Shown: positions 4,821 to 38,699, counted from the stretch's first letter. The stretch is 64,000 nt of DNA from an uncultured Poribacteria bacterium (GCA_951828385.1 OX639973.1:4765200-4829199), one strand, 5' to 3'. The notes: generated from the letters alone by a model not told the origin. Translations and numbers: made by a program.

Positions 4821-4840
4821 CGGCTGTTCGACTTACGGAG

Positions 4841-5443
4841 TTACCCTTTGACGTACTTCCAACCGTCAACCAAAACAGGAAGTCCGCGGATCAGGCACAT
4901 AGCGACAACCACACCAGAGAATATTACGCCTGCTAATTCCAAACCGACGACTAATTCCGGATGGATGCCGGAATTCTTGAAAGCAATAACACCGCCAAGA
5001 TAGATGAAAGCGACTGCTTTCGCAATGCCATAGATACTACGGCTTATTCGTGAACTGGTAAGCGCACGGGTCCATTTCGAAGACATCATAGTGTTCTCAC
5101 CGAAGGCAGTTTTGCCTTGTGCAAAGGCCGCGCTTCGCAAACCGTCTGTGAAAAACCCTCGCGCAATCACGATCACTGGAATCCAGAACGGGATCAATCC
5201 AACGACAGCGAAGTAAACCCAGAAGATGCATTCGACAATTCGGTCGCCGATGATGTCAAATAGTGCGCCAAAATCGGAAGTCTGATTGAGTTTGCGAGCA
5301 ACATAACCGTCAACCGCATCGAGAAACAGAATAAAACCGATCAGTGCCACAAGCAAAATGTCTAAATAGATGTGATGTCCAAAAAGGGAAATCACAACAA
5401 AGGCCAGGATCAAGCGGAAAAGCGTAATCAAATTCGCAATCAT
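4841..5443 (-). CDS. CDP-alcohol phosphatidyltransferase
   Basis: A 200-residue integral membrane protein with the family signature D-G-x2-A-R-x8-G-x3-D-x3-D (starting DGYVARKLNQ, about residues 45-70) between hydrophobic helices. These enzymes move a phosphatidyl or related group from a CDP-linked donor to an alcohol such as glycerol-3-phosphate or inositol. The short length and position of the motif fit PgsA-type synthases, but the acceptor is not evident. AAAGGAG lies before the ATG at 5443. It converges with the TPR lipoprotein gene, 20 bases apart. Confidence 0.85.
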   Translation of the reverse strand: MIANLITLFRLILAFVVISLFGHHIYLDILLVALIGFILFLDAVDGYVARKLNQTSDFGALFDIIGDRIVECIFWVYFAVVGLIPFWIPVIVIARGFFTDGLRSAAFAQGKTAFGENTMMSSKWTRALTSSRISRSIYGIAKAVAFIYLGGVIAFKNSGIHPELVVGLELAGVIFSGVVVAMCLIRGLPVLVDGWKYVKG

Positions 5444-20151: not shown

Positions 20152-20526
20152 ATGCGAAATAAGCGGAACACTCTGTGTGGAATATTAGGAATTTTCTTTG
20201 TCCTTTCTGTTGTCCTTATGGCATCAGGTCAACCGGCACCATCGGACTCAGGAGTTATAACAGTCACCGAAAAAATAGATGTAGGGGAGCTAAACAGAAA
20301 TGTGAGGGACTTGAGCAAAAATATGAAGGAGCTAAGCGAAAATCTGAAGGAGTTAAACAAGAACGTCCAAGAACTTAACAAACAGTTTGCCAGACTTGAT
20401 GAAAGGACAAAATTGCATTCTAATTTACTTTATATACTTATAGCGGGAGTTTTCGGCATCCCATTGACGCGAGTACTATGGTCTACATTCAGACTTCCCA
20501 CAAAACCGCATCAATCTCCGCCATAA
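20152..20526 (+). CDS. Small exported or membrane coiled-coil protein
   Basis: 124 residues from the ATG at 20152, which has AGGAG seven bases upstream; an in-frame upstream ATG lacks one. Residues about 5-27 are a signal peptide or first membrane helix. Residues about 40-85 are a heptad coiled coil built from repeats of the form x-x-L-[SN]-K/E-N-[VLM]-K/R-E-L. A second hydrophobic stretch (LLYILIAGVFGIPLTRVL) follows. No family recognised. Its last 38 bases overlap the end of the converging restriction-modification gene. Confidence 0.7.
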   Translation: MRNKRNTLCGILGIFFVLSVVLMASGQPAPSDSGVITVTEKIDVGELNRNVRDLSKNMKELSENLKELNKNVQELNKQFARLDERTKLHSNLLYILIAGVFGIPLTRVLWSTFRLPTKPHQSPP

Positions 20527-23500
20527 CCCCAAGTGTCTCCGCAACAGCCACCAAAATCGCACGATACTGACGCACGTCTTCATAACGCAACACCTCACCG
20601 CGCCGATCCTTCAACCACTTCTCACACACCTGATATGCACCGATTTCATATTCCCATACTGCCTCGGGGACATCCGTGAAATGCTGGGTAGCGTTAATCC
20701 AGACCTTACCCTCCACATACTGCAATTTTGATACAACGCCATCGCCTTCACCTTCAAACCGATGCAGTGCTGGAATCTGTACATCTTTTAGGAGATGCCA
20801 ATCCATCAACCGCTGCCCCAACGTAGCAAGTGCGCGGAAATGTTCAATATCCTGTGGCAAGGGGATACGCGGGAAGTCGTATTTTAGGAAATCATAGTAG
20901 CGTTGGCGGTAGATGGGACTATACAAGATTGCATAGATATAGGCGAGGATATCCTCTGGTGAGATACCTTCGGGGAGGTTAAATGGGGCGGTCTGCGGGA
21001 GTTCCAACGCCTCCGAAAGTGCAGTGAGAAAGGCAGGTTTGAAATTGAGTGAACGCTCTGTCTCAAGCCCCAATTCCTCTGGATTTGGATACAGGTAGAG
21101 CGGGAATACGTGTCCTGATTCGCTGGTTCTGTTAGAGATGTAAGAAACTTCGGTGATTTTATCAGTTATCAAAGCATGTTGCCAAACTGGACTTTTGACA
21201 ACACGACAGACACAGAGTGCCACATTTTCTGAAAGTAGATGTGGCATAACCGTAGGACGAGGCATACAATGAAAACCTCGCGATTGCCCAGTGTAATAGG
21301 TCCAGCGTGTGTCATACGGACGATAGTGAATAGGTGAGATATGCTGTTCTGCATTCGGATGGTTACGAAGATCCGCTTGGGCAAGGTGGATTTGCCAATC
21401 TCGGCTATCTCTTGGCAGCCTGTACCTTTCCCGTGCTTCATCTACAGAAAAGGAAACAAAATCCGTTACCGTTTCGCGCACCTCTTCAGCAGTCCGATGG
21501 ATTGTCAATTTGTCTCGTGCAGTGACAACACCAATTGAACTGGTTTGGAAGATGGCAGTAATTTTCCATCCTATTTCATATTCTGCTCGCGCTTCTACCT
21601 TTTGCGGCACAAAAAGATAGTCCGGTGATGTAGGTTGCAATTCATGCCATTCAGTGGTTTGGGTATCGCTCTCCGAAAGGGTGTTGTATTTCGCCTCGCG
21701 GGATCCCCACATATCAGCGTAATAAACTTTTGCCATCGTAGGATTATCGCGATGCTTAACACATAACACAATAGACACACCTTGCATTATGTCAAAAACA
21801 TTTTCATCTTGTTCCGTCAAAGGGATTGCTTCTGTTCTTCTGTTACTCCCATGTAGGTTGAGAAGATAGATAGCATTGAAACTCTCTAAAAGACTTTGGC
21901 GCATACCTCGAGCGGTAGCCGCGTCAAGGAAATTATTATTGACAATATAACCGATTACACCCTCGCCATTCTTATCAATTCGCCACTGTGCCCATCTAAT
22001 AAATTTCACATAATCATCTTGAAGTGCTCTTGGATTTCTCTCACGGATCGGTTCTCCATTAACCTGTCCATACTCCTTAATGAGTTCGCCAATAAAAGTT
22101 AAATTTCCATCAACGCGGTTTGGATTAGCAGAATGGATTTTATAAGGCGGATTGCCGAGGATAACAAGCAGTGGTTCATCACGTTTTACCGACAACGCTG
22201 CATTCGCCTCGTCGGTGATAAACTCCGCAAAGGGTAACGAGGGCTGCATTTCCGACGGTTGCTCTAAGGTATTCGTGAGATAGATACCGAGGCGTTCATC
22301 TGCATGCCACCCTTGTGCCTGTAAAAACAGCCCCAACTTCAGATGCGCGATGGTATACGGCGCGACGAGCAACTCAAACCCAAAAATCCGCTTGACCAGT
22401 TCAGCGTTGACATACTGCTGCCACGCCGCAGTACCATAGGTTTGTGTCACTGATTCCTGAATATGTTCCAACACCCTCAACAGAAAACCGCCAGTCCCCG
22501 TGGCAGGGTCAAGGATGAGCGTATTTTCATCTGCAAGCCCATCCGGTCTGTTCAACTCCGTTTTCAGCAGACTATCCACCGACCTGACGATGTAGGAGAT
22601 AACCTGCAGCGGTGTGTAGTAGACACCCCGATCAACGCGACGCTGCGGATCGTATTCAGCGAGGAAGGTCTCATAGAAGTGGATAACCGGATCTTCGAGA
22701 TGATTCCCCGCAGTAAACGCTGTTCGGAGCATCGCAGTCGGGACATTTCGGAGAAGCCCCGAAATCTCGTCCAGAATATAGGTGACGTTTGCCTCAAGCC
22801 TCGGTGAGGCGATATGATGAAAGAGTTCAATGAGAAACGGGTTTGATCTCGGCAGTGCATCTACAGCGGTGCGTCGCGAGAAGTTCGTGGCGTTCGGCAG
22901 TGTGCAGCGCGCCGCAAATAACCCATAAGCGAGGGTTTGTGCATACATATCCGCAAAATCGTCGAGGGTCAACGTAGACAGGAGGAGTTCCTTGAACGCC
23001 GAGAACATCCTATAAATATCGCTACTTTCATCAGCGAGCGTCGTAGCAACCTGCGTCTGTAGTTCCCGCGTCCGTCTGGCGAGGTATCTCGCGAGTGCCT
23101 CTGGGGTGGTAATCTGGACGGGTTCAGCATTTAGAAACCGATATAGTAATGTCTCAAAACTGCCCGTTCCATCTTCTACACTCGCCTCTGCGCGCAGGCG
23201 ACCTTCTGTCCACAACTGGAAATTGACGAAATTGGTGAGAATGAAGTTATCCAGATTTTTAATAAAACGTGCGTTCTGTTCTTGGGCGTGTCCTGTGAGA
23301 CTGTTCAGGTCTCTACCGTATCTTTCTGCCTCAATATAACCGATGGGCAACAAGCCATCCATTGCCACAAAATCGGGTCTCCCAATCTGATCCAATCGCC
23401 TCGGTTCTTGGACGAACCGTATCGTGTTTCTGCGAAAATGCGCAACGGAGACTTCCTCAAGGAAGGCTTGCAGGTGTGGAAATAAAGAAAGTTCTGGAGT

Positions 23501-23569
23501 TGCTGCTGCGCTCTCTTGTGTGTGGCGTATCTTCTGTAGATAAAGGTTACAACGTGTTTGAAAGTGCAT
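20489..23569 (-). CDS. Type IIG (ISP-like) restriction-modification enzyme, N6-adenine methyltransferase
   Basis: About 1026 residues. Near residues 65-82 a PD-(D/E)xK-like nuclease motif is present (G-R-P-D-F, then I-E-A-E). SAM-binding motif I D-P-A-T-G-T-G-G-F lies at about 354-362 and catalytic motif IV N-P-P-Y at about 473-476, as in N6-adenine methyltransferases. The rest is probably the target-recognition region. No helicase domain, so it is a single-chain type IIG layout rather than full type ISP. The frame reaches 23629, but that ATG lies inside a short repeat; MHFQTRC at 23569 is the better start, without a clear ribosome site. Confidence 0.85.
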   Translation of the reverse strand: MHFQTRCNLYLQKIRHTQESAAATPELSLFPHLQAFLEEVSVAHFRRNTIRFVQEPRRLDQIGRPDFVAMDGLLPIGYIEAERYGRDLNSLTGHAQEQNARFIKNLDNFILTNFVNFQLWTEGRLRAEASVEDGTGSFETLLYRFLNAEPVQITTPEALARYLARRTRELQTQVATTLADESSDIYRMFSAFKELLLSTLTLDDFADMYAQTLAYGLFAARCTLPNATNFSRRTAVDALPRSNPFLIELFHHIASPRLEANVTYILDEISGLLRNVPTAMLRTAFTAGNHLEDPVIHFYETFLAEYDPQRRVDRGVYYTPLQVISYIVRSVDSLLKTELNRPDGLADENTLILDPATGTGGFLLRVLEHIQESVTQTYGTAAWQQYVNAELVKRIFGFELLVAPYTIAHLKLGLFLQAQGWHADERLGIYLTNTLEQPSEMQPSLPFAEFITDEANAALSVKRDEPLLVILGNPPYKIHSANPNRVDGNLTFIGELIKEYGQVNGEPIRERNPRALQDDYVKFIRWAQWRIDKNGEGVIGYIVNNNFLDAATARGMRQSLLESFNAIYLLNLHGSNRRTEAIPLTEQDENVFDIMQGVSIVLCVKHRDNPTMAKVYYADMWGSREAKYNTLSESDTQTTEWHELQPTSPDYLFVPQKVEARAEYEIGWKITAIFQTSSIGVVTARDKLTIHRTAEEVRETVTDFVSFSVDEARERYRLPRDSRDWQIHLAQADLRNHPNAEQHISPIHYRPYDTRWTYYTGQSRGFHCMPRPTVMPHLLSENVALCVCRVVKSPVWQHALITDKITEVSYISNRTSESGHVFPLYLYPNPEELGLETERSLNFKPAFLTALSEALELPQTAPFNLPEGISPEDILAYIYAILYSPIYRQRYYDFLKYDFPRIPLPQDIEHFRALATLGQRLMDWHLLKDVQIPALHRFEGEGDGVVSKLQYVEGKVWINATQHFTDVPEAVWEYEIGAYQVCEKWLKDRRGEVLRYEDVRQYRAILVAVAETLGVMAEIDAVLWEV

Positions 23570-23589
23570 AAGCAGCAAGGTTTGTAGTA

Positions 23590-23652
23590 GCGCAATTCTG
23601 CGGCGTACTCGCCCAAATGCAACGTGCATTATTGCGCATTGCGTAAGTCCTA
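23590..23652. repeat. Hairpin repeat with 30-base module and ACTTACGCAA-type end
   Basis: GCGCAAT and ATTGCGC flank the module GCGGCGTACTCGCCCAAATG (continuing CAACGTGCAT, 23600-23630). GCGTAAGTCCT follows directly. The same module occurs at 40721, 40753 and 43022. It lies immediately upstream of the type IIG gene and probably carries or disturbs its leader. Confidence 0.6.
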
Positions 23653-25952: not shown

Positions 25953-26213
25953 ATGGATAAGCCGATGCCAAATTCCAAATCTATAACCCAACTTGCAGCT
26001 TATTGGAAACGAAATGGGCTCAGCACGCGCGCCAGTTATGTTCTCGCCAAAGCGGGTGTATCGGAAACACAGTTGGTAGCGTACCGTGAAATATCTGCAC
26101 TCTTATGTTTGAAAAACTGCGGCTCCGAAACTGCCAAGGAAATTTGGGATTTTATGGAAAATTCTGAGCGAGAAGTGAAAGAGGTAAAATTTGAAGAGCT
26201 CATCCCGAACTAA
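25953..26213 (+). CDS. Small helix-hairpin-helix protein, RNA-polymerase alpha-CTD-like
   Basis: 86 residues. The stretch LSTRASYVLAKAGVSETQLV followed by I-S-A-L-L-C-L-K-N-C-G-S-E-T-A-K-E-I-W resembles the alpha-CTD/helix-hairpin-helix fold (L-S-x-R-A-x-x-x-L-x-x-A-G and K-N-x-G-x-x-x-x-x-E-I), which binds DNA non-specifically. No polymerase domain is attached. No Shine-Dalgarno precedes the ATG at 25953; the internal ATG at 25965 is an alternative. It opens the BREX-like operon and overlaps the next gene by 23 bases, so translation is likely coupled. Confidence 0.65.
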   Translation: MDKPMPNSKSITQLAAYWKRNGLSTRASYVLAKAGVSETQLVAYREISALLCLKNCGSETAKEIWDFMENSEREVKEVKFEELIPN

Positions 26214-27774
26214 GTTTGTACCTGTAACGCCAAACGAAATTCAACCTGTAACGATCCGTTATGCCCGTGAAACAGATGTAGCCGGTGCAAAGGATCTCGC
26301 TGACCGGCATCGGGTGGAATTAGGCTTTGTTCGGACATCTGTACTACACGAAGCACACCAAAAGAAATGGCTCCTCGTTGCTGTTCGGGATGAACAGGTC
26401 ATCGGATTCGCTAATTTTCGTATACGTCAGGATAAAAATGCAACGCTTTATGATATTATTGTTGACGAATCCTATCGTAAGCAGAAAATCGGAAAACGAC
26501 TTGTCCAAAGGTTAGCGTGGTTAGTGAACGTAGCTGGAGGCGAACATATTCGACTCAAGTGCCCACAATCACTTCCCGCAAACGCGTTTTACCAGAAATT
26601 GCAATTTACACGGACAGATACCGAAATCGGGAAAAAACGCCCCTTAAACGTATGGCACCACTTTCTCAAACCATTGCCCCGGCGGTTTGAATTCCATGAA
26701 AACGGTGACGGATTTTTACATAGCCCACCAGAGCATTCCCCACATTTTTTCGCTTCTGCCACAATTGCCCCTGGAGAAATACGAAAGATCTACGAACTCT
26801 GGCATACGCATGCCCACGATTTTGAGTGGCCCCGAGGTAAACCGAATCCGTTCCAACGGTTGTTAATTTCACCCGTACGTGCCAGCCCTTCAACACTCGC
26901 GTTTGTGCGTGAACTTAAGCGTAGTGGAGAAACAGAAGAGGTAATGTTTGATTCTGGGGGCTTTTTTGTCCAAAAAGGGGATATTACCTACAACGAACTC
27001 TATTCAAAATTACGCGAGATTTACCATGCAGAAGACTGGGCGGACATCTACATTCTTCCAGACAATCCACCGTTGAGTAAGGATTCTATGTCTGATGCTG
27101 AGACTAAAATCCGACAGACAGTTCAGGGAAGTGTCAGTTTTGCTTACCAATTGCCGTCTGAGCTCCGTGGAAAGGTGATGCCAGTAATCCATGCCAAACA
27201 GCCTATACATCTGGAGTATTGCCTGAAAAACTATGAAACTTTAATGGTGGACTCACACCGTATCGGTTTCGGGTCTTTTTCAACCATGGGCACCACGAAT
27301 TCAATTAACCGGGTCAATGTGGATGTGTTGCGTTTGCTTGATGATTTAGTCCCATTACTCAATGGAAGTTGGCTTCATAGTTTTGGAATTTCAACACCCC
27401 CTGCAGTTTTCTGTTTGGCAAAAGTTGGTATTAGTACCTTTGATTCCAATAGTTGGATGCGCTCAGGGGGTTATGGCTATGTATTTTTTCCATTTGTTTT
27501 TGGACGTATGATTGACCGCAAAACGCGGAGGTATACACCAATCTATAAGGATGAGCTAGAACCGTTCAAATTGAATACAGGACACCGTTGTCCGTTTTGC
27601 AAATCTTTTGACAAGCTTTCAGATCGGAATGGGCGGTGGCTTCGGATTATGCACAACCTGACAGTGATGACAGAACTGGAGGTTCATCACCGCACACCGC
27701 AGTGGGAGATTCTAGAGGAGTATTCTCCTCATTATCACCGAATGCTGGAAATAACTAGGTTGTCACAAGATTAA
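26191..27774 (+). CDS. GNAT acetyltransferase fused to a tRNA-guanine-transglycosylase (DpdA-like) domain
   Basis: 527 residues, probably from the TTG at 26191 (GAGG upstream). Residues about 20-160 are a GNAT domain: acetyl-CoA site R-K-Q-K-I-G-K-R-L near 96-104 and a terminal A-F-Y-Q-K-L-Q-F. Residues about 215-500 read as a TGT-type TIM barrel: F-D-S-G-G-F at 253-258 (base-recognition Asp254), A-D-I-Y-I-L-P-D near 284-291, S-F-G-I-S-T-P near 397-403, and F-D-S-N-S-W-M-R-S-G-G at 417-427 (Asp418 at the nucleophile position). H465-R-C467-x2-C470 and H488 could form the zinc site, with His replacing the usual first Cys. TGT enzymes exchange guanine for 7-deazaguanine bases in tRNA, or in DNA for DpdA. 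Family call is from motifs. Confidence 0.7.
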   Translation: MKSSSRTKFVPVTPNEIQPVTIRYARETDVAGAKDLADRHRVELGFVRTSVLHEAHQKKWLLVAVRDEQVIGFANFRIRQDKNATLYDIIVDESYRKQKIGKRLVQRLAWLVNVAGGEHIRLKCPQSLPANAFYQKLQFTRTDTEIGKKRPLNVWHHFLKPLPRRFEFHENGDGFLHSPPEHSPHFFASATIAPGEIRKIYELWHTHAHDFEWPRGKPNPFQRLLISPVRASPSTLAFVRELKRSGETEEVMFDSGGFFVQKGDITYNELYSKLREIYHAEDWADIYILPDNPPLSKDSMSDAETKIRQTVQGSVSFAYQLPSELRGKVMPVIHAKQPIHLEYCLKNYETLMVDSHRIGFGSFSTMGTTNSINRVNVDVLRLLDDLVPLLNGSWLHSFGISTPPAVFCLAKVGISTFDSNSWMRSGGYGYVFFPFVFGRMIDRKTRRYTPIYKDELEPFKLNTGHRCPFCKSFDKLSDRNGRWLRIMHNLTVMTELEVHHRTPQWEILEEYSPHYHRMLEITRLSQD

Positions 27775-27786
27775 AGTAAGGAAAAT

Positions 27787-28620
27787 ATGTCACGAATACA
27801 TATCCTAAAGGGATTTTCTGGAATAGAGGGTGCGTTGTGGGTATTGAAATTTTACCCAGGACTTCCAAGCCGTCAGGAGATGGCTCGTACTGCCACTCAA
27901 AACGGTTATGTCGTAACGAATAAGAGAGATTATGACATCTTACAGGTCCTTGGCGAGTGGGAACTTGCAGATGTCGAAAAACGGCAATTCACCTCACGAG
28001 GAAAGGAATTTTACTCTCTATGGGAAATGAAGCGAGATGTTGCAATTGATGTGTTACATGGGTTGCAATACAGTTTGTGGACCGAACATGCTCCCGACCA
28101 AAATCTTGCATCGTGGGCTTACCAGAGGGTGTGTAATTATCTCTGGGAGTATCATATCTTGCCCAAACCACAGGATTTAATTACTTACATCTATGACAAT
28201 CGAGAGGATTTAGGAGTGATTCGTGGTGATATAGCGAATGCTTTTAGTTCTAAATCTGTCAATGGTGCTTACGATTGGATGCTCCCTCTTTCCCCGCCAG
28301 TGTTTAGTGGTGTTGGTGAAACAGCGACCGGTAGAAGAAATTTCACGAAAGCGGTTTTCACACGGCGTTCCTATTGTTCTGCTGCACTTTTCCTAATGGG
28401 CTTAGATTGGGTTGCTCGAGAGGCAAAAATTAAGTTTGGAGAACCAGTGGAAATTAATGATATGCGGAGAACTCAAGTGTGTTGTTTTTGCCTACTTGAA
28501 GAGAGTGGATTTGATTTTATGTTGAATGAAACACTTCGCCGCTTTGCATTTCTGTCAGTTGAGCAGATCGGGCGACTTTTTATTATCATTAACCGAACCC
28601 CAAAAATTGCCGATTTTTAA
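27787..28620 (+). CDS. Unknown protein of the BREX-like operon
   Basis: 277 residues, no family recognised. The N-terminal half looks like a helical, winged-helix-type region (SRQEMARTATQNGYVVTNKR, DILQVLGEWELADVEKRQFT). The middle is aromatic-rich (ASWAYQRVCNYLWEYHI) and a C-terminal C-C-F-C lies near residue 240. AAGGAAAAT precedes the ATG, 12 bases after the GNAT-TGT gene and 19 before the large ATPase. By position it could be the analogue of BrxA or an accessory subunit, but sequence alone does not show that. Confidence 0.7.
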   Translation: MSRIHILKGFSGIEGALWVLKFYPGLPSRQEMARTATQNGYVVTNKRDYDILQVLGEWELADVEKRQFTSRGKEFYSLWEMKRDVAIDVLHGLQYSLWTEHAPDQNLASWAYQRVCNYLWEYHILPKPQDLITYIYDNREDLGVIRGDIANAFSSKSVNGAYDWMLPLSPPVFSGVGETATGRRNFTKAVFTRRSYCSAALFLMGLDWVAREAKIKFGEPVEINDMRRTQVCCFCLLEESGFDFMLNETLRRFAFLSVEQIGRLFIIINRTPKIADF

Positions 28621-28639: not shown

Positions 28640-31600
28640 ATGTCATTAGCAGATATTATTCAAAAAGAACGAACTATTTATACACCTTTAGCTCAGGAAG
28701 TGGCTGATTCACCTGATGAGCAGGAGCAAAAATTTAGGTTTCATGTTGATACCTATGTCGCTATTGCAGATGTAAAGAGTCGATGGGAGGCTATACTCAA
28801 CAATCTCTTAAAAGGACAATCCGTCACTGGATTAATCTATGCGGATACCGGCTATGGTAAAACGTCAACAGGAGCATCCTTGTGGAATTACGCCGAAGAG
28901 AATGGAATTGTAACAGTACCACCGTTCATGTGGAATAGCCTCGCGGATCTGCTTGTTGCAACGCATGGTTGGGTTCTTTATCGATTAAAGCATACGCGGC
29001 CTGACCTTGTTCCTAAATTGGAGGAGAAGTATAAAGCCGTGGTTGCGTCTGGCGAAGAAGTCTTGGCAGAGAAAATGAGTCGTGAGAAATCTTTGTCGGT
29101 TGAACAAGCACAGGAAGCAACTGCATTCGTGAAAGCAGAAGGACTGTTACGAGAAGATTTATCACCACATGGACTTTTGGATTATCTTCGTTTCGCAACT
29201 GAGCAGGTGTTAGCTGCACACTATAAAGGGCTCATGATTCTGCCGGATGAATTTCAACTCTTTAGGAACAACCCAGATACTGCACAAAATTATGACCGTC
29301 TCAAACAGTTTATTTTTGGAATCCATGGTGAAGAAAAACTCCCAATTGGATGTATTGCATTAACTTATAGAGAGACGTTTGCGAGTATCAGGGAAAGTGA
29401 ATACAATTATCTACTTGCAAGATTTGCCAAGCCAACGGGAAACCTTATTGATTTGCAAAGTCTCTATGGAGAACCAGGGTTTGCCAAGAGTCTCTGGAAT
29501 AAATTGACGGATCTGTGTAGCTTATCCCCCTCAGAAAAGTCCGCGATTGATAATGATGTTTTGGATGCCCTAGGGCAGTTTTTACGGCATTCGCGGGCAA
29601 GAGCACTAATGAGCGGACCACGTTCAGTTATAGAGACATTTAGGCGTGCGGCACTACACTACACAGAGAAAAATTGTCCCTACACTCTTTTCGATTTTTG
29701 TGAGGATTATCTTGCAGGAAATATTGCCTTTAGCAGCCAACATACCGAGGCAGCGCAGGCACATACGCAGATAATGACACTACCCAGTATTAATACTCCA
29801 GAAAAACAAAAAATAGTCAAATTACTATGTGTCCATCCAGAAGGGGTACCACCAACACTATTTAAAAAATATGGTATATTGGCATCTGATAGAGATGATA
29901 TCGTTCAATCTTTATTAGGAGTACATGTTATCACAAAGGGGACAAGCACACCAACTCTGGCATGCTATAGAGACGATTTACTTGGGGTAGATAGTCTAAA
30001 TGAAATCCTTAAACGACTCAGAGAACGTTTTAACCCAGAAGACAAAACGATTCACTATAAAAGTGTACGTGCTTTTCACAAACATATATTTCCCCAGATT
30101 TTTACTTCGAGAAAGCAAGGTACACTCTTAGGATGGACAGGTATACAAGAGTTAAGGGAAAAATCAGATGGTGGTTGTACAATAAACCTGACAGGGGCTC
30201 CTCCAAGTTTGCGTGAGTACCCTAACCGAACATTAAGAGTTGACATTAACACACAGGAAATTACCCGCCCACCTTTGATATCTAAATCTCAGTTACAAGT
30301 TCAGTTTATTCTGGATACTGTTGGCGACGTTATCAACTCTTGTCACGTTGCCACAAACGGACTTGAGTTCCGGTTTAACCTCCGTAAACCAATCAATCCG
30401 CAGAAAGTACCGGAAGATATTGGAAAACTGACTGAGTTGTTTCTTCCAGAGAACATAACGCCGCTGCTTCTGCTTTCTATACTTGATTTTTTTGATGAGG
30501 AACCAATTATTGATATAGTAAAAGGAGCTAAACAGGAAGCCCAAGTTCATTCTTTGACAGATCTAATCCGTGGTGAACTTATCCGTTGCTTCTTTTCTCT
30601 AGAAGTCAAGGAGAACGCGGTTGAGCACTCTGCAGATCTTACTTCTGTCCCTGCTGGGAAGGATTTTGTTGAAGGCGCATTAAAGGTCTTGGTTCCAAAG
30701 CAATTTCCGAACTATCATGCCTTGGCCATTGCTAAGGGATGGGAAAACAGTTTAGGAATATATAAAGATGCTTTCGGCAAGGCTTTTACTCTTGGCATGA
30801 AACGTGGTAAGGACCCAATCAAAGCCGGACCCAAATTATTTAACATGGGTCAAGTTGCTTTTGCAAACTTCTGTGATGGTGTAGCTCGTAACTTGCTGAG
30901 GGTTGAATATGGTTCTAGTAAGCAAGATGAGGCGGATATCTACTTCATCCTCCACCCATTTGAGGAAGCGTTGGTCGAGCGTCTTGAAAGCAATTCAAGT
31001 ACTATGTTTGTTAATGGCAAACAGATTGAAACGACAGAACTCTCGGAGGTTTATAAGTATGCTAAAAATCTTGGATATCTTGACAAAGAGATTGATGAAT
31101 TGCTAGCGATTCTTAAGGCGCGAGGTATAGTAGAACAACAACAAGTGAGTGGCACTGAGCACCTCTACCTAATGGAAACGTCTATCAATTTGGCAGATTT
31201 AGAAGCCAAACTGGGAGCAATTGAGGAGGATGTGACATTAGCAGAATCAAATGGTTTTCAGTATCAATGCCCTGATCTCTCCTCTGCTCGTAAATTGATT
31301 CAGACTTTGGGAATTGAAAACGACGAAATGCAGAAGGACGCATTGCGCCAGAATCTGAATTTAGCGGAGGAACTCTTAAAGGAAAAGTGCGCGGAATGGA
31401 TAAAGAGAGGGCATGAAAATCTTAGGCAGAAGGTTAATATTCTAGAAACATTTCATCTTCAAATTCCGACGGTTTTAGAGCAACAAACAGGTCATCCGCT
31501 GACTGAATTTTCTCAGATTCTTTTTCAGAGTGTACAACCGGAAGTGAAACGCGCTTATACAAAGATTTCTGATCGAATTAAGAGAATTCAGGGAAGAGTA

Positions 31601-32560
31601 CGCGAGACTTGTGATAGAGAAGTTGTGACGTATCAATTAGATCAAACGCCGCGCAAGGCAATTGAGACTGCTTCGAGATTACAACAAGCTTGTGTCCTCG
31701 TTGATGTGGATATTGAAGAACTTGATCAGGAACGAAAAGATGCTGAGGAATTGCATCAACTCTTTAGGTACTGGCGCGATTTAGCACACCAGGTAGAAGG
31801 TGAAGGGCAACGAATGGTTAACGACCAAGAAGAGCCTGCTGTGAAAAATGTGGTTGATCAGTTTAATGTTATACAAAAACAGATACGAGATCACCTCGGG
31901 GAGAAGCGAATACCTTTCAAGGATGTTTTGGGTGCCTATGAACATTTCAAGGTGCAGATTGATGAGATTAAGTCTGAATTTGATCAATACTTTGGCGGAA
32001 AGGAAAAAGTGTTTATCATGGACCAAGCCAATATTGAGAAATTGTTGGCGAAGTTGATTGATACGCCGCATGTTGGAGTAAAATGGAATCCTTCAGATGT
32101 TGATGGGTGCTACCGTGAAACGCGAGAAAAGGCTATAGGAAAATTGAGAAGTGTCGTTGATATTGCTCTAAACCAACTTGATATGGTGAACCGTGCTTTG
32201 CTGGGACCAATTGAGACTTATGCTGTTCCCGAATCGCTCAAAGCTAACGCGATTCAACTTCGCGATGACATTGGACAATATTCCGAAGAATTTCAAGGAA
32301 TCCTACCTAACCTTATCATAGAAAACGTTGACCCGCAATTATCGAATTGGATTTCAGAACTCATTACTCTACGTCAAAAAGGTGAAGATATTCGGCAGAG
32401 ATGGGAAGATATTGAAAACGATATGACCGGGTTCAGAAATCAGTTAAGTCAAAGTACCAAGAGATTGCATGATGCCGTAAATCCACTGCTTGAGGATGGA
32501 ACCTTTAATTCACCTAGTGAGATTATTGAGCGTTTGGAAGAATTATACCGGTTACGTTGA
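28640..32560 (+). CDS. BrxC/PglY-like large P-loop ATPase
   Basis: 1306 residues. Walker A A-D-T-G-Y-G-K-T at 68-75 and a Walker-B-like G-L-M-I-L-P-D-E-F near 197-205, then the sensor-like S-G-P-R-S-V-I-E-T region, make an AAA/ORC-type ATPase. The remainder is long and helical, with coiled-coil stretches between about 850 and 1300. Size, order and context fit BrxC (type 3, DUF6079-like) or PglY of BREX/Pgl phage defence, where this ATPase is a core subunit of unsettled mechanism. AGAGGTTTG precedes the ATG. Assigned from architecture and neighbours. Confidence 0.72.
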   Translation: MSLADIIQKERTIYTPLAQEVADSPDEQEQKFRFHVDTYVAIADVKSRWEAILNNLLKGQSVTGLIYADTGYGKTSTGASLWNYAEENGIVTVPPFMWNSLADLLVATHGWVLYRLKHTRPDLVPKLEEKYKAVVASGEEVLAEKMSREKSLSVEQAQEATAFVKAEGLLREDLSPHGLLDYLRFATEQVLAAHYKGLMILPDEFQLFRNNPDTAQNYDRLKQFIFGIHGEEKLPIGCIALTYRETFASIRESEYNYLLARFAKPTGNLIDLQSLYGEPGFAKSLWNKLTDLCSLSPSEKSAIDNDVLDALGQFLRHSRARALMSGPRSVIETFRRAALHYTEKNCPYTLFDFCEDYLAGNIAFSSQHTEAAQAHTQIMTLPSINTPEKQKIVKLLCVHPEGVPPTLFKKYGILASDRDDIVQSLLGVHVITKGTSTPTLACYRDDLLGVDSLNEILKRLRERFNPEDKTIHYKSVRAFHKHIFPQIFTSRKQGTLLGWTGIQELREKSDGGCTINLTGAPPSLREYPNRTLRVDINTQEITRPPLISKSQLQVQFILDTVGDVINSCHVATNGLEFRFNLRKPINPQKVPEDIGKLTELFLPENITPLLLLSILDFFDEEPIIDIVKGAKQEAQVHSLTDLIRGELIRCFFSLEVKENAVEHSADLTSVPAGKDFVEGALKVLVPKQFPNYHALAIAKGWENSLGIYKDAFGKAFTLGMKRGKDPIKAGPKLFNMGQVAFANFCDGVARNLLRVEYGSSKQDEADIYFILHPFEEALVERLESNSSTMFVNGKQIETTELSEVYKYAKNLGYLDKEIDELLAILKARGIVEQQQVSGTEHLYLMETSINLADLEAKLGAIEEDVTLAESNGFQYQCPDLSSARKLIQTLGIENDEMQKDALRQNLNLAEELLKEKCAEWIKRGHENLRQKVNILETFHLQIPTVLEQQTGHPLTEFSQILFQSVQPEVKRAYTKISDRIKRIQGRVRETCDREVVTYQLDQTPRKAIETASRLQQACVLVDVDIEELDQERKDAEELHQLFRYWRDLAHQVEGEGQRMVNDQEEPAVKNVVDQFNVIQKQIRDHLGEKRIPFKDVLGAYEHFKVQIDEIKSEFDQYFGGKEKVFIMDQANIEKLLAKLIDTPHVGVKWNPSDVDGCYRETREKAIGKLRSVVDIALNQLDMVNRALLGPIETYAVPESLKANAIQLRDDIGQYSEEFQGILPNLIIENVDPQLSNWISELITLRQKGEDIRQRWEDIENDMTGFRNQLSQSTKRLHDAVNPLLEDGTFNSPSEIIERLEELYRLR

Positions 32561-32581: not shown

Positions 32582-33130
32582 ATGAATTGGCTAACTTATC
32601 ATAAACAACTCTTACGATTGGCAGAGACCACCGAAACGCTGACCCCTTCTCAAATCTCTGCACAGGATGCTGTTCTGAATGCTGTCGGGGGATGGGAACG
32701 ATGTATCAACTTGTGCGGTAAACCTGGGACTGGGAAAACCTTTTTGATGCACTATCTCCATCACCGAGCAGATCTTGTCTATTTTTCAGATCAGGCCCGC
32801 TATGATGCAAGAGTTTCCGGCGATTCAGTTGTCGCGATTGATAATGTGCCCTACACACGTCAGGAGTCGCGTAGGCTTTACGATAAAATCCGGTGGGGAG
32901 AAACGGATTACACAGGTCCTGTGAATGTCATTCTCATCACACGCGAACCGATTGATGATGCAGTGCATCGGATTGAACTAACGTTGACAGATACCGACAT
33001 CGCCCACATAGAAAATATCATACGCCAACAATTTGGTGAATCTGATTTTGAAACCTTCAGTCAGTATGATCACCAACGTTCCGGGCTGTGGTGGTACGTC
33101 AAAACCCTTTGTTGTAGCATAGACTGTTAG
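32582..33130 (+). CDS. Small P-loop ATPase, BrxF-like
   Basis: 182 residues. Walker A G-K-P-G-T-G-K-T at 46-53 and Walker B V-V-A-I-D-N at 83-88, followed by V-N-V-I-L-I-T-R. A small stand-alone ATPase next to a BrxC-like giant is the arrangement of BREX type 3 (BrxF). AAGGA precedes the ATG, 21 bases after the large ATPase gene. The reading frame ends 135 bases before an insertion sequence. The C-terminus looks complete for a BrxF-sized protein, so the insertion seems to lie between genes. Confidence 0.7.
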   Translation: MNWLTYHKQLLRLAETTETLTPSQISAQDAVLNAVGGWERCINLCGKPGTGKTFLMHYLHHRADLVYFSDQARYDARVSGDSVVAIDNVPYTRQESRRLYDKIRWGETDYTGPVNVILITREPIDDAVHRIELTLTDTDIAHIENIIRQQFGESDFETFSQYDHQRSGLWWYVKTLCCSIDC

Positions 33131-33341: not shown

Positions 33342-33417
33342 AGTGGAATAAAAGGCGATACTTTACATCCCTTTATTTTCACTTTTGATACCTATTTCCT
33401 TTATGAAAGGTGCTCTT

Positions 33418-33840
33418 ATGGCAAATACGTCTGAAAAGTCTCCGAGATACAATGGTATTCCGAAGCAAGTTTCGCGTAAGGATTTTAATCGTTATATCTT
33501 GCCACATCTGAAGAAACGCATCAAAGGTCCAAAGCCGAAACTTTCTTTCTACAAGATATTCAACTATATTCTCTATGTTTTGCATACCGGTATTCAATGG
33601 GATCAACTCCGCACACGACGGAATGAACTCCATTGGTCGAATGTCTATAAATGGCATAATCGCTGGTCAAAAGATGGTTCCTATGAGAACCTTTTTCAGG
33701 CCTCCATCATCCACTTACTTGATACCGACAAACTTGACACGACACGCCTTCACGGAGATGGTTCAAACACCGTTGTGAAAAAGGGGGTGACGGTATCGGA
33801 TACTCCGGACACAAACATCAGAAAGGCGAAAAAGAGGTGA
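33418..33840 (+). CDS. IS5-like transposase, N-terminal frame
   Basis: 140 residues from the ATG at 33418 (AAAGGTG upstream). It contains the DUF4096-like N-terminal region (PHLKKRIKGPKPKLSFYKIF, HTGIQWDQL) and the first catalytic Asp in L-H-G-D-G-S-N-T. After AAAAAG-GGGG the frame loses homology. Re-reading one base back gives G-G-D-G-I-G-Y-S-G-H-K-H, the expected continuation. This is therefore either a programmed -1 frameshift site or a one-base loss in the G run. Confidence 0.8.
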   Translation: MANTSEKSPRYNGIPKQVSRKDFNRYILPHLKKRIKGPKPKLSFYKIFNYILYVLHTGIQWDQLRTRRNELHWSNVYKWHNRWSKDGSYENLFQASIIHLLDTDKLDTTRLHGDGSNTVVKKGVTVSDTPDTNIRKAKKR

Positions 33841-34286
33841 CGATCACCGATAACCATGGGTTCATCATAGGTCCGATAACGATGAAACCCGTCAACGCAC
33901 ATGATACAACGATTTTGCCGGAAGCCTTCAGCGATATAATCGCTTTTAGTCAACGGATGGGTATGGATCTTTCGGGTTCTGCTCTCACGCTTGATTCTGC
34001 CTTTGATTCTAAGGCGAATCATCAGTTGATTAGAGAACACGGATTGAAACCCGTGATTTATCCGAACCGTCGGAATGCTAAAGAACCCATCGTCATCGCT
34101 CGTAAGTTTCGCTGGTTTGACAAAGAGATATACAAAGAACGCTATAAGGTCGAGCGAACTTTCGGGTGGCAAGACACTTATCGAAAACTCGCTCTGAGCT
34201 ACGATAAACTTAAAGAGACGCGTTTAGGGTTTCGTCATTTGGCATATTCTATGATTAACTTTCGTATAACTTTCAACGATTCATGA
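33837..34286 (+). CDS. IS5-like transposase, C-terminal frame
   Basis: 149 residues, overlapping the first frame at GTGA. It has the second catalytic Asp in T-L-D-S-A-F-D-S and the catalytic Glu in Y-K-V-E-R-T-F-G-W, completing a DDE set with the upstream frame. Internal initiation at GTG is possible, but a fusion by -1 frameshifting upstream would give one full transposase of about 285 residues. Confidence 0.8.
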   Translation: MTITDNHGFIIGPITMKPVNAHDTTILPEAFSDIIAFSQRMGMDLSGSALTLDSAFDSKANHQLIREHGLKPVIYPNRRNAKEPIVIARKFRWFDKEIYKERYKVERTFGWQDTYRKLALSYDKLKETRLGFRHLAYSMINFRITFNDS

Positions 34287-34439
34287 CGCGTACTCGCTAT
34301 GAGTTCTTTAACAAAAAACAATTCGTAGGGGGTTTTTGCTTGGGTGTTTCTTCAAGGTCCCCTCGCCCGTCTTTCAAAATGTGTCCTATTATTTTTAGAG
34401 GTCACTATAAATACTAAAGTTTGGACAATATTGTAAAGT

Positions 34440-35363
34440 TTATGCTGCCTTGTCAAAAGGCAGAGGTGTATCGTCTTGCAAACTCACATTAATATTCTGC
34501 GAGTTTGTTTTTTCATTGAACTTAGCGAAAAATGACGACATCGCTATTTGCGAGCGGAGATAAGCCACCCGCAAACCTTGTGTAAGTTTTCCGGGGCGAT
34601 ACCAATGAATGCCGAGATGTTGACAGACTTTCTCAACGCTTATCGTTTTCTGCGTCGCGTTGGGTGTTGTGAATATCAACTTCGTGAGACTCGCTGCGAC
34701 GAAACTCAGTTGAACGAACCGATTGATGCTCTTGCGAGATTTCAGGCGATAGGCATCGAAGCCGAAGTGCTGTTTGACATCTCGAAAGGCAGTTTCTATC
34801 TGCCACCTTTGCCGATAATACTCTATAATCTTGGGTATCTCAAGCGTCAAATCTGTTGTAAAGACGCAGAAATACCGATACGGTTTTGAGGCTTTCGGGC
34901 GGTTTCGGATGATGACGAGTCGGACATCTGCATCACACATCTTCGTCCGCACGACCTTTGAGGCAATCGAATAACTTTTTGCGCCTATATCTATGTCCTT
35001 ATATCGGAGTCGGCGAATATCAAGACGGTCTCCGTATTTCCGAGGTCGCCCGCGTTGGCGACGTTTAGGAGGTTTCGGTAAACGATAGAAAACAGCATTA
35101 GATTTCGCACGACATAAGATATGATGTCCGAAACTTAGAGCCATTGTAAAGACTTTTCGCCATGCGAAACCACGATCAAAGATGATAAGTCCCCGGGGGA
35201 TGTTTGAACAGATACGCTTCAGAACCGGAAAACTTTTATCGCGGATTGACTGTGGCAGAATGAGTTTCACCCAGACGGGGAATAGATGCCACTGCGTCGC
35301 TGTCTGGCAAAGTAAACCTAATGCCCCAAACTCGTGTCCGTAATGAAACTTCGATTGATTCAC
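34440..35363 (-). CDS. IS4-like transposase, C-terminal part (frameshifted)
   Basis: 307 residues beginning at a GTG used here only as a nominal start. The second catalytic Asp is in L-I-I-F-D-R-G-F-A-W. Y-R-Q-R-W-Q-I-E-T-A-F-R-D-V-K matches the IS4 Y-x2-R-x3-E-x6-K signature exactly. Homology continues upstream without a stop into RNFSYQKHRV, showing this is the rest of the frame at 35380. Confidence 0.8.
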   Translation of the reverse strand: MNQSKFHYGHEFGALGLLCQTATQWHLFPVWVKLILPQSIRDKSFPVLKRICSNIPRGLIIFDRGFAWRKVFTMALSFGHHILCRAKSNAVFYRLPKPPKRRQRGRPRKYGDRLDIRRLRYKDIDIGAKSYSIASKVVRTKMCDADVRLVIIRNRPKASKPYRYFCVFTTDLTLEIPKIIEYYRQRWQIETAFRDVKQHFGFDAYRLKSRKSINRFVQLSFVAASLTKLIFTTPNATQKTISVEKVCQHLGIHWYRPGKLTQGLRVAYLRSQIAMSSFFAKFNEKTNSQNINVSLQDDTPLPFDKAA

Positions 35364-35924: not shown

Positions 35925-36338
35925 ATGACTGAAGGAAAATCAGGTAGAAACTGGCGCGAGATTGTAACTCCTGAATGGTCGCTCGCCATTTTAATCCATG
36001 TAATTGTCTTGGAGATACTGTATGTATTTCTCCTACTCAGACCTAACGGAGAAACCCTAAATACTATCATATTAAATACAAGCGCGGCCTTACCCATTTT
36101 TACATTTATCGCCGTGATTCTCATGGAAATATGGGAAGTTGCTTGGGAGGTTATCATGTTAGTGAAAAGACTTTTTGAGAAGCTCGAGCACCGGAGACTC
36201 GAAAAAGCGCGTTTAGAAGGGTTAGCTGAAGGCTTATCCGAAGCGGAGAAAAAACATGCAGAATGGGTGGAATGGGCTAAAAACGGTCAGGATAAACCGC
36301 AACCCAAACCCCCAAAAGCTCCAGAGACGGATAGTTAG
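35925..36338 (+). CDS. Small two-helix membrane protein in the defence operon
   Basis: 137 residues. Hydrophobic stretches at about 18-40 (SLAILIHVIVLEILYVFLLL) and 50-80 (LPIFTFIAVILMEIWEVAWE) are followed by a charged helix (LEHRRLEKARLEGLAEGLSE) and a proline-rich tail. AGGA precedes the ATG. No known BREX subunit looks like this; it may be operon-specific or brought with the insertions. It is 42 bases from the PglZ gene. Confidence 0.7.
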   Translation: MTEGKSGRNWREIVTPEWSLAILIHVIVLEILYVFLLLRPNGETLNTIILNTSAALPIFTFIAVILMEIWEVAWEVIMLVKRLFEKLEHRRLEKARLEGLAEGLSEAEKKHAEWVEWAKNGQDKPQPKPPKAPETDS

Positions 36339-36380: not shown

Positions 36381-37475
36381 ATGGCACAGCAATTGTGCAC
36401 GATCCCCTGCATAACTGAAATCCCGGAAAACTATCGCGCTTTGTGGGAACTTTGCCTTACCGATGTTTGGTGTCCAACATCGCTTGAGGAGTGGCGAAAA
36501 CGAATTGATTCACCTCGCGAAATTGACCCAGATACAATCCTTTTTGTGAACCTATCTCCTTCAGACAGAGAAGAATTGACACAGGTTTTCGGTTTTCCAA
36601 CAGTTGAATTTCCTGAACTTCCTTCGATAGAACAGGTCAATGCAGCATTACCAAGCCGCTTTGAGACAACACATCTATTCAAACAGTCCGATGTCGCTGC
36701 AGAAATTACAAAACGGATTCATCAGGAATTACCACAGATAGTCATTCTATTGGTTTTCGATGGCTTATCCTTTTATGATGTCGTAGATTGGAAACTACCC
36801 CAAGCGACACTGGAACCGTGTCTTGTGGATGGGTTAAGTGTCACGAATAGTGCTATGCAACGACTCATCGGTTCACCTGTTTTAACACATAGACTTTTTG
36901 AGTTGGGATACGTCCGGCGGTTGGGCTTTTCATATTGGGAACGCGCAGCAAATGTATTGACCGATGCGCTTTTTGCTGAGTTTCCACCGAGCCAACTGCA
37001 TCGCATGACAACCTTTGACGAAGTTTTAGGGAAGATAAAGACATCTGGATGGGAAACACATACATACGTTCAGATTATCCGTTCTGGACTTGATGGGGTT
37101 TGCCATGTTAACAGAGAACGCCCAAATATTAAGTCGATTCTTAGCGATCTAAAGCGAGATGTTCTCTTTCTCATTGAGGTCTTACAGGAAACTGAGAAAT
37201 CATTTCGTCTTTTTATTACTGCCGACCATGGGATTCTTTGGTACGCTGACCAAGACATTGTTCCTCTGGCACAAGAGAAATTCAATGCACGGTACACTGA
37301 CGGATCTATCACACGAGGGGATAATCTACTAACGCTGAATACCGATGAGGGCACCTACACTGTTTTAACTGGCGACAAAGTTATCGCGAAACAGCGTAAA
37401 GTGACAGAGTGGGGCTTTCACGGTGGAGTCTCAGCACAAGAATCATTAGTCCCATTTTGGGATGTCCGTCAATAA
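36381..37475 (+). CDS. pglZ: PglZ-domain protein
   Basis: 364 residues, alkaline-phosphatase superfamily PglZ domain. Metal Asp127 is in L-L-V-F-D-G-L-S, the nucleophile-region Thr155 in L-S-V-T-N-S-A-M-Q, D-H-G at 282-284 in F-I-T-A-D-H-G-I-L, and the PglZ hallmark H-G-G-V-S-x2-E-S-L-V-P at 347-358. PglZ is the one subunit common to all BREX and Pgl phage-defence systems. This one is short compared with the 600-900 residues usual for BREX, keeping mainly the catalytic domain. Fifteen bases separate it from the HerA-like gene. Confidence 0.87.
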   Translation: MAQQLCTIPCITEIPENYRALWELCLTDVWCPTSLEEWRKRIDSPREIDPDTILFVNLSPSDREELTQVFGFPTVEFPELPSIEQVNAALPSRFETTHLFKQSDVAAEITKRIHQELPQIVILLVFDGLSFYDVVDWKLPQATLEPCLVDGLSVTNSAMQRLIGSPVLTHRLFELGYVRRLGFSYWERAANVLTDALFAEFPPSQLHRMTTFDEVLGKIKTSGWETHTYVQIIRSGLDGVCHVNRERPNIKSILSDLKRDVLFLIEVLQETEKSFRLFITADHGILWYADQDIVPLAQEKFNARYTDGSITRGDNLLTLNTDEGTYTVLTGDKVIAKQRKVTEWGFHGGVSAQESLVPFWDVRQ

Positions 37476-37490
37476 AGTGAGAAATTTATA

Positions 37491-38699
37491 ATGGCTGAAG
37501 TGAATCTACGAGTCGGTACTGACTACGAAACTGAAGATATAGCGTATATCCGAGCAACTGGTTCTCGTGCTGTTTTTATCTGTGGCAAGCGAGGTTCCGG
37601 AAAAAGCTACACACTCGGCGTGATTGCAGAAGAATTATTTTCACAGGAACGCGGAAAAGCCGTTCTGATTATCGCCGATCCCATGGGCATCTATCACACA
37701 ATGGTTTCAGCCAACGAAAGCCAGTCGGATGAGGTTCGACAGGCTGGATTGCTGACGGAAGGGTTTCCTGTCCGTCTGATTGTACCGGGTGACCCACTTG
37801 CCTGTTTCGGAGACGCTCAAATTGTGAATAGACTCCAAACGAACGGCGTTGAAGTAACATCGCTCTGGATTAACGCCCATGACCTATCAGCAGATGCATG
37901 GTGTGAACTGTTTGATTTGGAAATCAATAATGCTATGGGAATAGCGATGTGGCGGGCGGTGGATACCCTTCAGGAAACCCATGAAAGTTTCAATATTTCA
38001 GATATCCTAACAAGTCTCCGTAAAGATACGCGCGCTAAAAGCACCACAGTAGAAGCACTCGAAAATCGCTTGACAGCTGCCCAAAGATGGGGATTTTTCT
38101 CTGAGGAACCAACCCACTTAACAGATGTATTTTCCTTGGAACACATTAACGTTTTGGATTTAAGTGTTATTGACGCGGGTACTAAAGGATTGCGAAACTT
38201 AGTGTTGGATATTGTTGCGCGGCGGTTGTTTACAGAACGGACGCGGATGCGCCGGCGCGAAGAATTTGGAATGGAAACAAGTCTTCCCCGAGTTTGGATG
38301 GCAATTGACGAAGCACATCAGTTTATACCGCAGGGCAAGGGATCCTTATGTAAAGAGATGTTAATCCGTTGGGTGAAAGAAGGTCGCCAGCCCGGACTGA
38401 GTCTTGTCGTCGCGACGCAACAACCCTCCGCAATTGATTCCGAATTGCTTTCTCAGTGTGACCTGATCATGGCACATAAAATTACAACATGGGACGATAT
38501 CAACGCACTTGATCGGTTGAGTGCGACCTACATGGAAGGTGATTTAAAGGGATATATCCGACAACTTAACCGTCAGGGTGAGGCTCTTTTGGTTGATGAC
38601 GAGACAGAGGCCGTTAACATAATTCGCGTCCGTCCACGGCGCAGTGCACACGGCGGGGCTGAAATTCAGGAGAAAACGACAAGCCGTTCCTTTTTCTGA
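37491..38699 (+). CDS. HerA-type (DUF87) DNA translocase ATPase
   Basis: 402 residues. Walker A G-K-R-G-S-G-K-S at 32-39, Walker B W-M-A-I-D-E-A-H at 269-276, and the HerA/FtsK-type V-A-T-Q-Q-P-S-A-I-D with a following sensor region. HerA-like hexamers pump double-stranded DNA and often pair with nucleases in defence systems. No nuclease is evident beside it. It closes the plus-strand operon. No standard BREX type has this gene as a core subunit, which sets the module apart. Confidence 0.87.
   Translation: MAEVNLRVGTDYETEDIAYIRATGSRAVFICGKRGSGKSYTLGVIAEELFSQERGKAVLIIADPMGIYHTMVSANESQSDEVRQAGLLTEGFPVRLIVPGDPLACFGDAQIVNRLQTNGVEVTSLWINAHDLSADAWCELFDLEINNAMGIAMWRAVDTLQETHESFNISDILTSLRKDTRAKSTTVEALENRLTAAQRWGFFSEEPTHLTDVFSLEHINVLDLSVIDAGTKGLRNLVLDIVARRLFTERTRMRRREEFGMETSLPRVWMAIDEAHQFIPQGKGSLCKEMLIRWVKEGRQPGLSLVVATQQPSAIDSELLSQCDLIMAHKITTWDDINALDRLSATYMEGDLKGYIRQLNRQGEALLVDDETEAVNIIRVRPRRSAHGGAEIQEKTTSRSFF

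Follow-up and report, generated by a model that had tools for sequence, protein, structure and literature searches.

The window, which is the whole stretch of DNA analysed (64,000 nucleotides), belongs to a 6.66 Mb genome of an uncultured Poribacteria bacterium. An open reading frame at 26191–27774 (+) starts with TTG and stays open over 527 codons. The reverse strand across the same positions contains many stops, and the frame was judged to be real. It encodes a GNAT domain fused to a TGT barrel. The first 23 bp of the gene are shared with the preceding 86-aa gene, 12 bp separate it from the following one, and the fusion is the second gene of an operon reaching about 38699. The original prediction was right about the gene itself, but its frame was too narrow, as the surrounding BREX-related defence operon had gone unseen.

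The first operon gene (25953–26213, +; 86 aa) encodes a helix-hairpin-helix/RNA polymerase alpha-CTD-like protein (RNA_pol_A_CTD, E 0.0045, sub-threshold), possibly a regulator or a DNA-binding part of the system. Its counterparts elsewhere can be long: 683 aa in L029 (7365–9416; RNA_pol_A_CTD, E 3e-30; three alpha-CTD-like repeats and sigma-70 region 4) and 689 aa in L030 (7364–9433; three alpha-CTD-like repeats). In L034, a large protein (290–2857) stands in its place.

The gene following the fusion (27787–28620, +) encodes a 277-aa protein assigned by fold as an SspB/BrxA-like DNA-binding protein (DUF4007-like). Its AlphaFold2 model has a pLDDT of 90 and aligns to SspB (6juf) with a VIA-align Z of 14.8 over 252 residues and to BrxA (7zge) with a Z of 9.4. 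The protein had no Pfam match at all; as the Pfam DUF4007 model gave no hit, membership by Pfam was dropped and fold comparison used instead. Next comes a BrxC-like large ATPase of 1306 aa (28640–32560, +) with the Walker A motif GYGKTS (BrxC_BrxD, E 0.025, sub-threshold). It is homologous (E 8e-57) to a Haloplanus 'BREX system ATP-binding domain-containing protein'; DUF6079 membership was also tried by Pfam, with no hit. The following 182-aa NTPase (32582–33130, +; AAA_22, E 3e-4) is full length when compared with its relatives and has counterparts in BRC loci (see below), the assignment being AAA/STAND-like P-loop only.

Two insertion sequences (33385–35363) sit between the NTPase gene and the genes for the 137-aa and PglZ-like proteins. 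They comprise IS4/5-type frames at 33385–34286 (+) and a DDE transposase at 34440–35363 (-). The flanking genes are intact compared with full-length relatives, but the insertions may uncouple transcription of the PglZ and HerA genes from that of the genes upstream. The small 137-aa protein (35925–36338, +) is kept in several close relatives. The PglZ-like phosphatase/nuclease (36381–37475, +; 364 aa) matches NCBIfam BREX_PglZ_2 below the cut-off (E 0.006). Its homologues were found in every BRC locus with the 3' part present, and the relative in L033 matches Phosphodiest (E 0.003). The last gene (37491–38699, +) encodes a HerA/FtsK translocase of 402 aa (DUF87, E 7e-12; HerA_antiphage_2, E 2e-14, below cut-off). 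The same gene order, free of insertion sequences, was found in other Poribacteria, in Gemmatimonadetes, Latescibacteria, Chloroflexi and Firmicutes-type MAGs and on a Haloplanus plasmid. On the other strand, 2.3 kb upstream of the operon, lies a type IIG/ISP restriction-modification enzyme (20489–23629, -; PADLOC REase_MTase_IIG, E 5e-252; Pfam Type_ISP_C, E 3e-87), which makes the region a defence island.

The operon fits the BREX-Related Capture (BRC) system, a kind already described in a study that used comparative genomics only (Rakesh & Krishnan, NAR, January 2026; PMC12839542). There, the components are given as PglZ, a BrxC-type ATPase, a STAND NTPase, a BrxA/DUF4007-type DNA binder, HerA, GNAT and TGT, in 45 taxa. 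HerA is stated to be kept in all loci and GNAT to be 'occasionally fused with TGT', and the role proposed for GNAT and TGT is the marking of host DNA. The main text contains no mention of Poribacteria, an HCCH zinc site, preQ-type supply genes or Druantia.

The GNAT domain covers about residues 20–163 (26191–26685, +), as delimited by Pfam and by alignment with fused and free partners. The match to Acetyltransf_1 (E 2.8e-13, residues 56–139) is above the curated cut-off, so the predicted N-terminal GNAT was borne out. The acetyl-CoA loop of the fusion reads R-K-Q-K-I-G-K and lacks the first Gly of RxxGxG, which is present in L029, L035 and other relatives in the GNAT alignment. A PDB sequence search with the fusion (phmmer/hmmsearch) returned GNAT matches only, meaning that the TGT part needs fold comparison. 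The nearest solved relatives of the GNAT are RimI-type protein/amine acetyltransferases. Fusions with 83–87% identity occur in six other Poribacteria genomes, and the nearest relatives are all Candidatus Poribacteria MAGs; relatives in other phyla share 30–57% identity. Carriers that can be cultured include Oscillatoria nigro-viridis PCC 7112 and Haloplanus sp. HW8-1. Two other Poribacteria proteins of 630–720 aa (L018 and L019) carry an N-terminal GNAT about 30% identical to that of the fusion, followed by putative PIN and ASCH-type domains (assigned by eye).

The TGT-like TIM barrel with its zinc subdomain covers about residues 185–500 (26743–27690, +), as placed by AlphaFold2 and VIA-align. 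At the profile level, the match to PF01702 was sub-threshold (E 0.0076, residues 285–495), and phrog_887 'queuine tRNA-ribosyltransferase' matched with E 9e-7. The AlphaFold2 model of the fusion was built on 21 sequences (the window and related loci) and has a mean pLDDT of 84.1, with the barrel mostly >90. It aligns to archaeal TGT 1iq8 with a VIA-align Z of 26.9 (rmsd 3.1 Å, 305 residues) and to Zymomonas TGT with a Z of at least 25. The top Foldseek matches were all TGT. The DNA-guanine transglycosylase 7ui4 (DpdA) was not among the best 50 structures listed, which has no bearing on its similarity. Both the TGT-like barrel and the two-domain anatomy of the original prediction are thus confirmed, by fold for the TGT and by Pfam for the GNAT.

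Three Asp residues align with the active site of Zymomonas mobilis TGT. Asp254 (F-D-S-G-G-F; 26950–26952, +) corresponds to D102, the general acid/base; Asp291 (L-P-D; 27061–27063, +) to D156, the base-recognition Asp; and Asp418 (F-D-S-N-S-W; 27442–27444, +) to D280, the nucleophile. The residue alignment took in canonical TGT, bacterial DpdA and phage DpdA, and the catalytic-residue match rests on alignments. A profile-profile comparison with the Poribacteria tgt gave the same registration of Asp254 and Asp418 (probability 94%, E 1e-7). No variation was seen across 21 of 21 aligned relatives at the three Asp residues, H396, G399 or H465/C467/C470/H488; for the Asp and zinc-ligand residues, such invariance is far beyond chance. 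The catalytic contexts claimed for Asp254 and Asp418 therefore hold. On the question of whether the domain is a TIM barrel with both Asp superposing on the TGT active site, the outcome favours the claim at the level of fold and alignment.

The ordinary TGT zinc site, C-x-C-x2-C...H, is absent from the fusion. In its place, as had been predicted, stands H465-x-C467-x2-C470...H488 (27583–27654, +), with four candidate ligands kept. His replaces the first zinc Cys in all 16 clade members with a complete C-terminus, so this exchange is a signature of the whole clade and no mutation private to this gene. Canonical tgt and bacterial DpdA keep the first Cys, as does one additional TGT-like protein, and the motif is gone from phage 9g-type DpdA in the alignment. 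As a sequence signature, the clade has H-x-C-P-[FY]-C ... [ML]-H-N. The base-binding loop also differs (G-F-G-S-F versus G-G-L in canonical TGT).

In a maximum-likelihood tree of 34 TGT-type sequences, the fusion and its relatives form a single clade (96/96 support). Canonical TGT (100/100), bacterial DpdA (100/100) and phage DpdA (100/98) all fall outside it. The deeper branching order is uncertain because of some long branches. The DpdA model of PADLOC (PDLC02807) did not match the fusion at E 1 and was not found in the genome of the window; DpdA-type proteins were found in 13 of 84 Poribacteria-phylum genomes searched. The genes adjoining the fusion gave no PADLOC match to DpdB, DpdC or other Dpd genes. 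On the DpdA model, the tree and the zinc site, where bacterial DpdA keeps C-x-C-x2-C...H, we reject the identification of the fusion as DpdA, and the label 'DpdA-like' in its strict sense did not survive. The protein would work like a TGT but is no DpdA. Carriers of bacterial DpdA-type proteins include G005, G008, G011, G012, G024, G027 and G033, among others. Proteins of another TGT-like family (L015, L016, L017 and L020, all Poribacteria) are about 400 aa long and no longer have the zinc cysteines; the one member scanned matched the DpdA model weakly (E 9e-6).

In the alignment, a basic residue (R/K) is retained in the barrel close to a tRNA-contacting Arg of TGT, and the closest folds among the matches listed are tRNA-acting TGTs. 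The enzyme could act on host or invader tRNA when the system responds, and the GNAT would then acetylate the base in the tRNA. We regard this as very unlikely. The tRNA-acting archaeal TGT has a PUA domain, and no such domain follows the barrel of the fusion. A separate canonical tgt is present in the genome of the window and in 12 of 12 carrier genomes. The operon is a DNA-handling one (SspB/BrxA-like protein, HerA, PglZ), and phage relatives come with preQ0 genes. The missing PUA domain and the separate tgt argue for DNA over tRNA as the substrate.

In most loci, the GNAT is fused to the TGT. In L031 and L033 it is encoded separately next to the TGT gene, and in L034 it closes the operon, as it does in Haloplanus, where the GNAT belongs to a different lineage. 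The TGT tree requires at least three switches between the fused and the separate state. Distances in the GNAT and TGT trees were correlated (r 0.68), and none of 5000 shuffles was as high. Without close pairs, r was 0.42 (105 of 5000 shuffles). Exceptions were an orphan TGT with neither GNAT nor defence genes nearby (L038), a phage-like contig without GNAT (L040) and L032, where the contig ends inside the operon.

An alignment-based search of viral contigs found two viral loci; a single-sequence search of viral contigs with the TGT part alone found nothing. On viral contig L044 (IMGVR_UViG_3300006054_000001, 3195–5130), a 135-aa GNAT gene overlaps the TGT gene by 4 bp, and the available stretch contains no BREX-type gene. 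Proteins that equal these two in length and share 34–35% identity with them are present in a structure library of viral proteins. The TGT of L044 has 257 aa and ends before the zinc motif, and it is preceded by a 253-aa gene whose product is SAVED-like (putative, by eye). Taken together, GNAT and TGT are co-inherited whether joined in one protein or encoded apart, and the two also occur as neighbouring genes in a virus.

Five loci carry the GNAT-TGT, the SspB-like protein and the BrxC-like ATPase beside Druantia-type genes: an Oscillatoria plasmid (L021), two Poribacteria (L035 and L036), an Acidobacteria (L037) and a Binatia locus (L039). PglZ and HerA were not seen after the core genes in the available sequence of the five loci, and the L039 contig ends soon after BrxC, so that both genes could lie beyond its end. 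DruE matched with E 0 in L021 and L039, and its cut genes matched with E 5e-202 in L035 and 3e-144 in L037. DruF and DruL were also found at Druantia-type loci, with no separate DruL identified in L037. L036 was assigned by layout and by its close similarity to L035. In L035, all genes run the same way with short gaps; the arrangement is convergent in L021 and divergent in L039. On the TGT tree, the PglZ-HerA or Druantia state changed at least three times, with modest support for some of the branches concerned. The only components common to both types of loci are the GNAT-TGT, the SspB-like protein and the BrxC-like ATPase. As an exchange of effectors leaves these three in place, they are what would be expected of a marking unit. 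By its definition (PMC8565338), Druantia type IV includes neither TGT nor GNAT nor BrxC. No mention of TGT was found in a YprA/Druantia survey (PMC12458937), and among papers containing at least two of the four terms searched, none naming both Druantia and TGT was found.

Genes of the preQ pathway lie near several members of the clade. The Haloplanus plasmid has queC, queE and queD beside the TGT. In Acidobacteria L037, queD ends 37 bp upstream of the GNAT-TGT, and queC is about 9 kb away. The phage-like contig L040 (= L051/L052, G038:C1:70000-107000) combines a clade TGT with QueC, QueE and FolE; it also carries a DNA polymerase and DNA methyltransferases. The genome of the window has queC and queF. 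Among the 12 carrier genomes (draft MAGs), QueC was not found in five and QueF was not found in seven; a supply of 7-deazaguanine made de novo is therefore no general feature. A 7-deazaguanine step is supported by the preQ0 genes near members and by queC, queF and tgt in the genome of the window, and weakened by the missing QueC and QueF.

With QueC not found in 5 of 12 carriers and a base-binding loop that differs from G-G-L, the cargo of the TGT could be a base from outside the queuosine pathway, made or finished by the GNAT, giving a new acylated purine in DNA. That GNAT always accompanies TGT in defence loci with the full gene set visible would fit. We consider this reading unlikely, as Asp291 is invariant, as in guanine/7-deazaguanine-binding enzymes, preQ0 genes stand beside several members, and MAG incompleteness together with preQ0 salvage could account for the missing QueC.

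The QueF gaps also affect the idea that the GNAT modifies the inserted base, as originally proposed. The idea was strengthened by the co-inheritance of GNAT and TGT, but its preQ1-amine version fails generally. Acetylated preQ1 as a general product was ruled out because QueF was not found in 7 of 12 carrier MAGs; it is possible in Poribacteria. The GNAT may still modify the inserted base in some other way. Alternatively, the TGT may work as proposed and the GNAT acetylate a protein of the system, for example the BrxC-like or PglZ-like one, as a switch or licence tied to acetyl-CoA or to the TGT reaction. The RimI-type kinship of the GNAT and the missing QueF, and hence missing preQ1 with its primary amine, speak for this. 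The direct GNAT-TGT fusion in many lineages and the viral pair in L044, where the partnership needs no defence proteins, speak against it. On balance, we rate acetylation of a system protein as rather improbable.

We lean towards reading the fusion as the self-marking (modification) enzyme of the BRC system, with the TGT inserting a 7-deazaguanine-type base in DNA and the GNAT acylating. The TGT fold and catalytic residues are kept, and the operon consists of BREX-type components. TGT homologues acting on DNA have precedents in phages and Dpd systems (PMC6884629); a literature search for a precedent in GNAT/Mom-type DNA modification gave no direct help. According to PMC12839542, the modification unit of SSP and type-4 BREX consists of SspB (DUF4007), SspC (BrxC-type) and SspD, a PAPS reductase. 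By analogy, the GNAT-TGT would hold the place of SspD in a shared unit and can be read as the marking enzyme. The co-inheritance and the core shared across BRC and Druantia loci likewise make self-marking the likely role. Observations against this reading are the Pfam misses for DUF4007 and DUF6079, the QueC and QueF gaps, the GNAT lineage in Haloplanus, and L038 and L040 without GNAT.

In the proposed mechanism, the SspB/BrxA-like protein (27787–28620) would locate the DNA site, and the BrxC-like ATPase (28640–32560) would drive or license the reaction; the two would do for the GNAT-TGT what SspB and SspC do for SspD, the enzyme of phosphorothioation. The TGT domain would cleave the glycosidic bond of guanine in DNA and insert a 7-deazaguanine-type base via a covalent Asp418 intermediate. 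Our guess is that the GNAT acylates the base before or after insertion, or another partner of the same reaction. PglZ and HerA, or elsewhere DruE/F/L of Druantia, would attack DNA without the mark, which would thereby protect self. A bolder version is conceivable, though we doubt it: a single chain would produce a novel acylated DNA mark, probably based on 7-deazaguanine, and the cassette of GNAT-TGT, SspB-like and BrxC-like genes would be a movable self-recognition module common to different effector systems (BREX-type PglZ-HerA, Druantia DruE/F/L) and some viruses.

The HCCH zinc clade, its separation from DpdA, the GNAT-TGT co-inheritance and the exchange of BRC and Druantia contexts were not found in the literature searched. 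If self-marking is correct, BREX-related and Druantia defence would share one base-exchange marking module, an acylated base would join the known DNA marks, and the discrimination of self and non-self by these Druantia-type loci could be tested directly. Because the GNAT is fused, the question is approachable with one purified protein. The HCCH signature can be used to find more members and separates the clade from DpdA and tRNA TGT.

Compared with known systems, the operon appears to have the component list of BRC, including the GNAT-TGT fusion; it differs in that the GNAT-TGT core also occurs in Druantia-type loci with no HerA seen. With Druantia type IV (DruE, DruF, DruL), the link is that five loci have the core adjoining or in one operon, whereas the window itself has PglZ-HerA. 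SspABCD and type-4 BREX likewise place an SspB-like DNA binder and a BrxC(SspC)-type ATPase beside a modifying enzyme, but the modifier there is a PAPS reductase (SspD) and here the GNAT-TGT. With DpdA/Dpd systems, the points in common are a defence operon that includes an enzyme of TGT fold, the pair of catalytic Asp and preQ0 genes near some members. In contrast, the enzyme described here belongs to a separate clade without a DpdA-model match, has H for the first zinc Cys and is fused or linked to a GNAT, with no DpdB/DpdC found among the adjoining genes. Canonical bacterial and archaeal TGT has the same fold (Z 25–27), catalytic Asp pair, base-binding Asp and zinc subdomain. At about 15% identity, however, the fusion has HCCH instead of CCCH, G-F-G-S-F instead of G-G-L, and a GNAT but no PUA domain.
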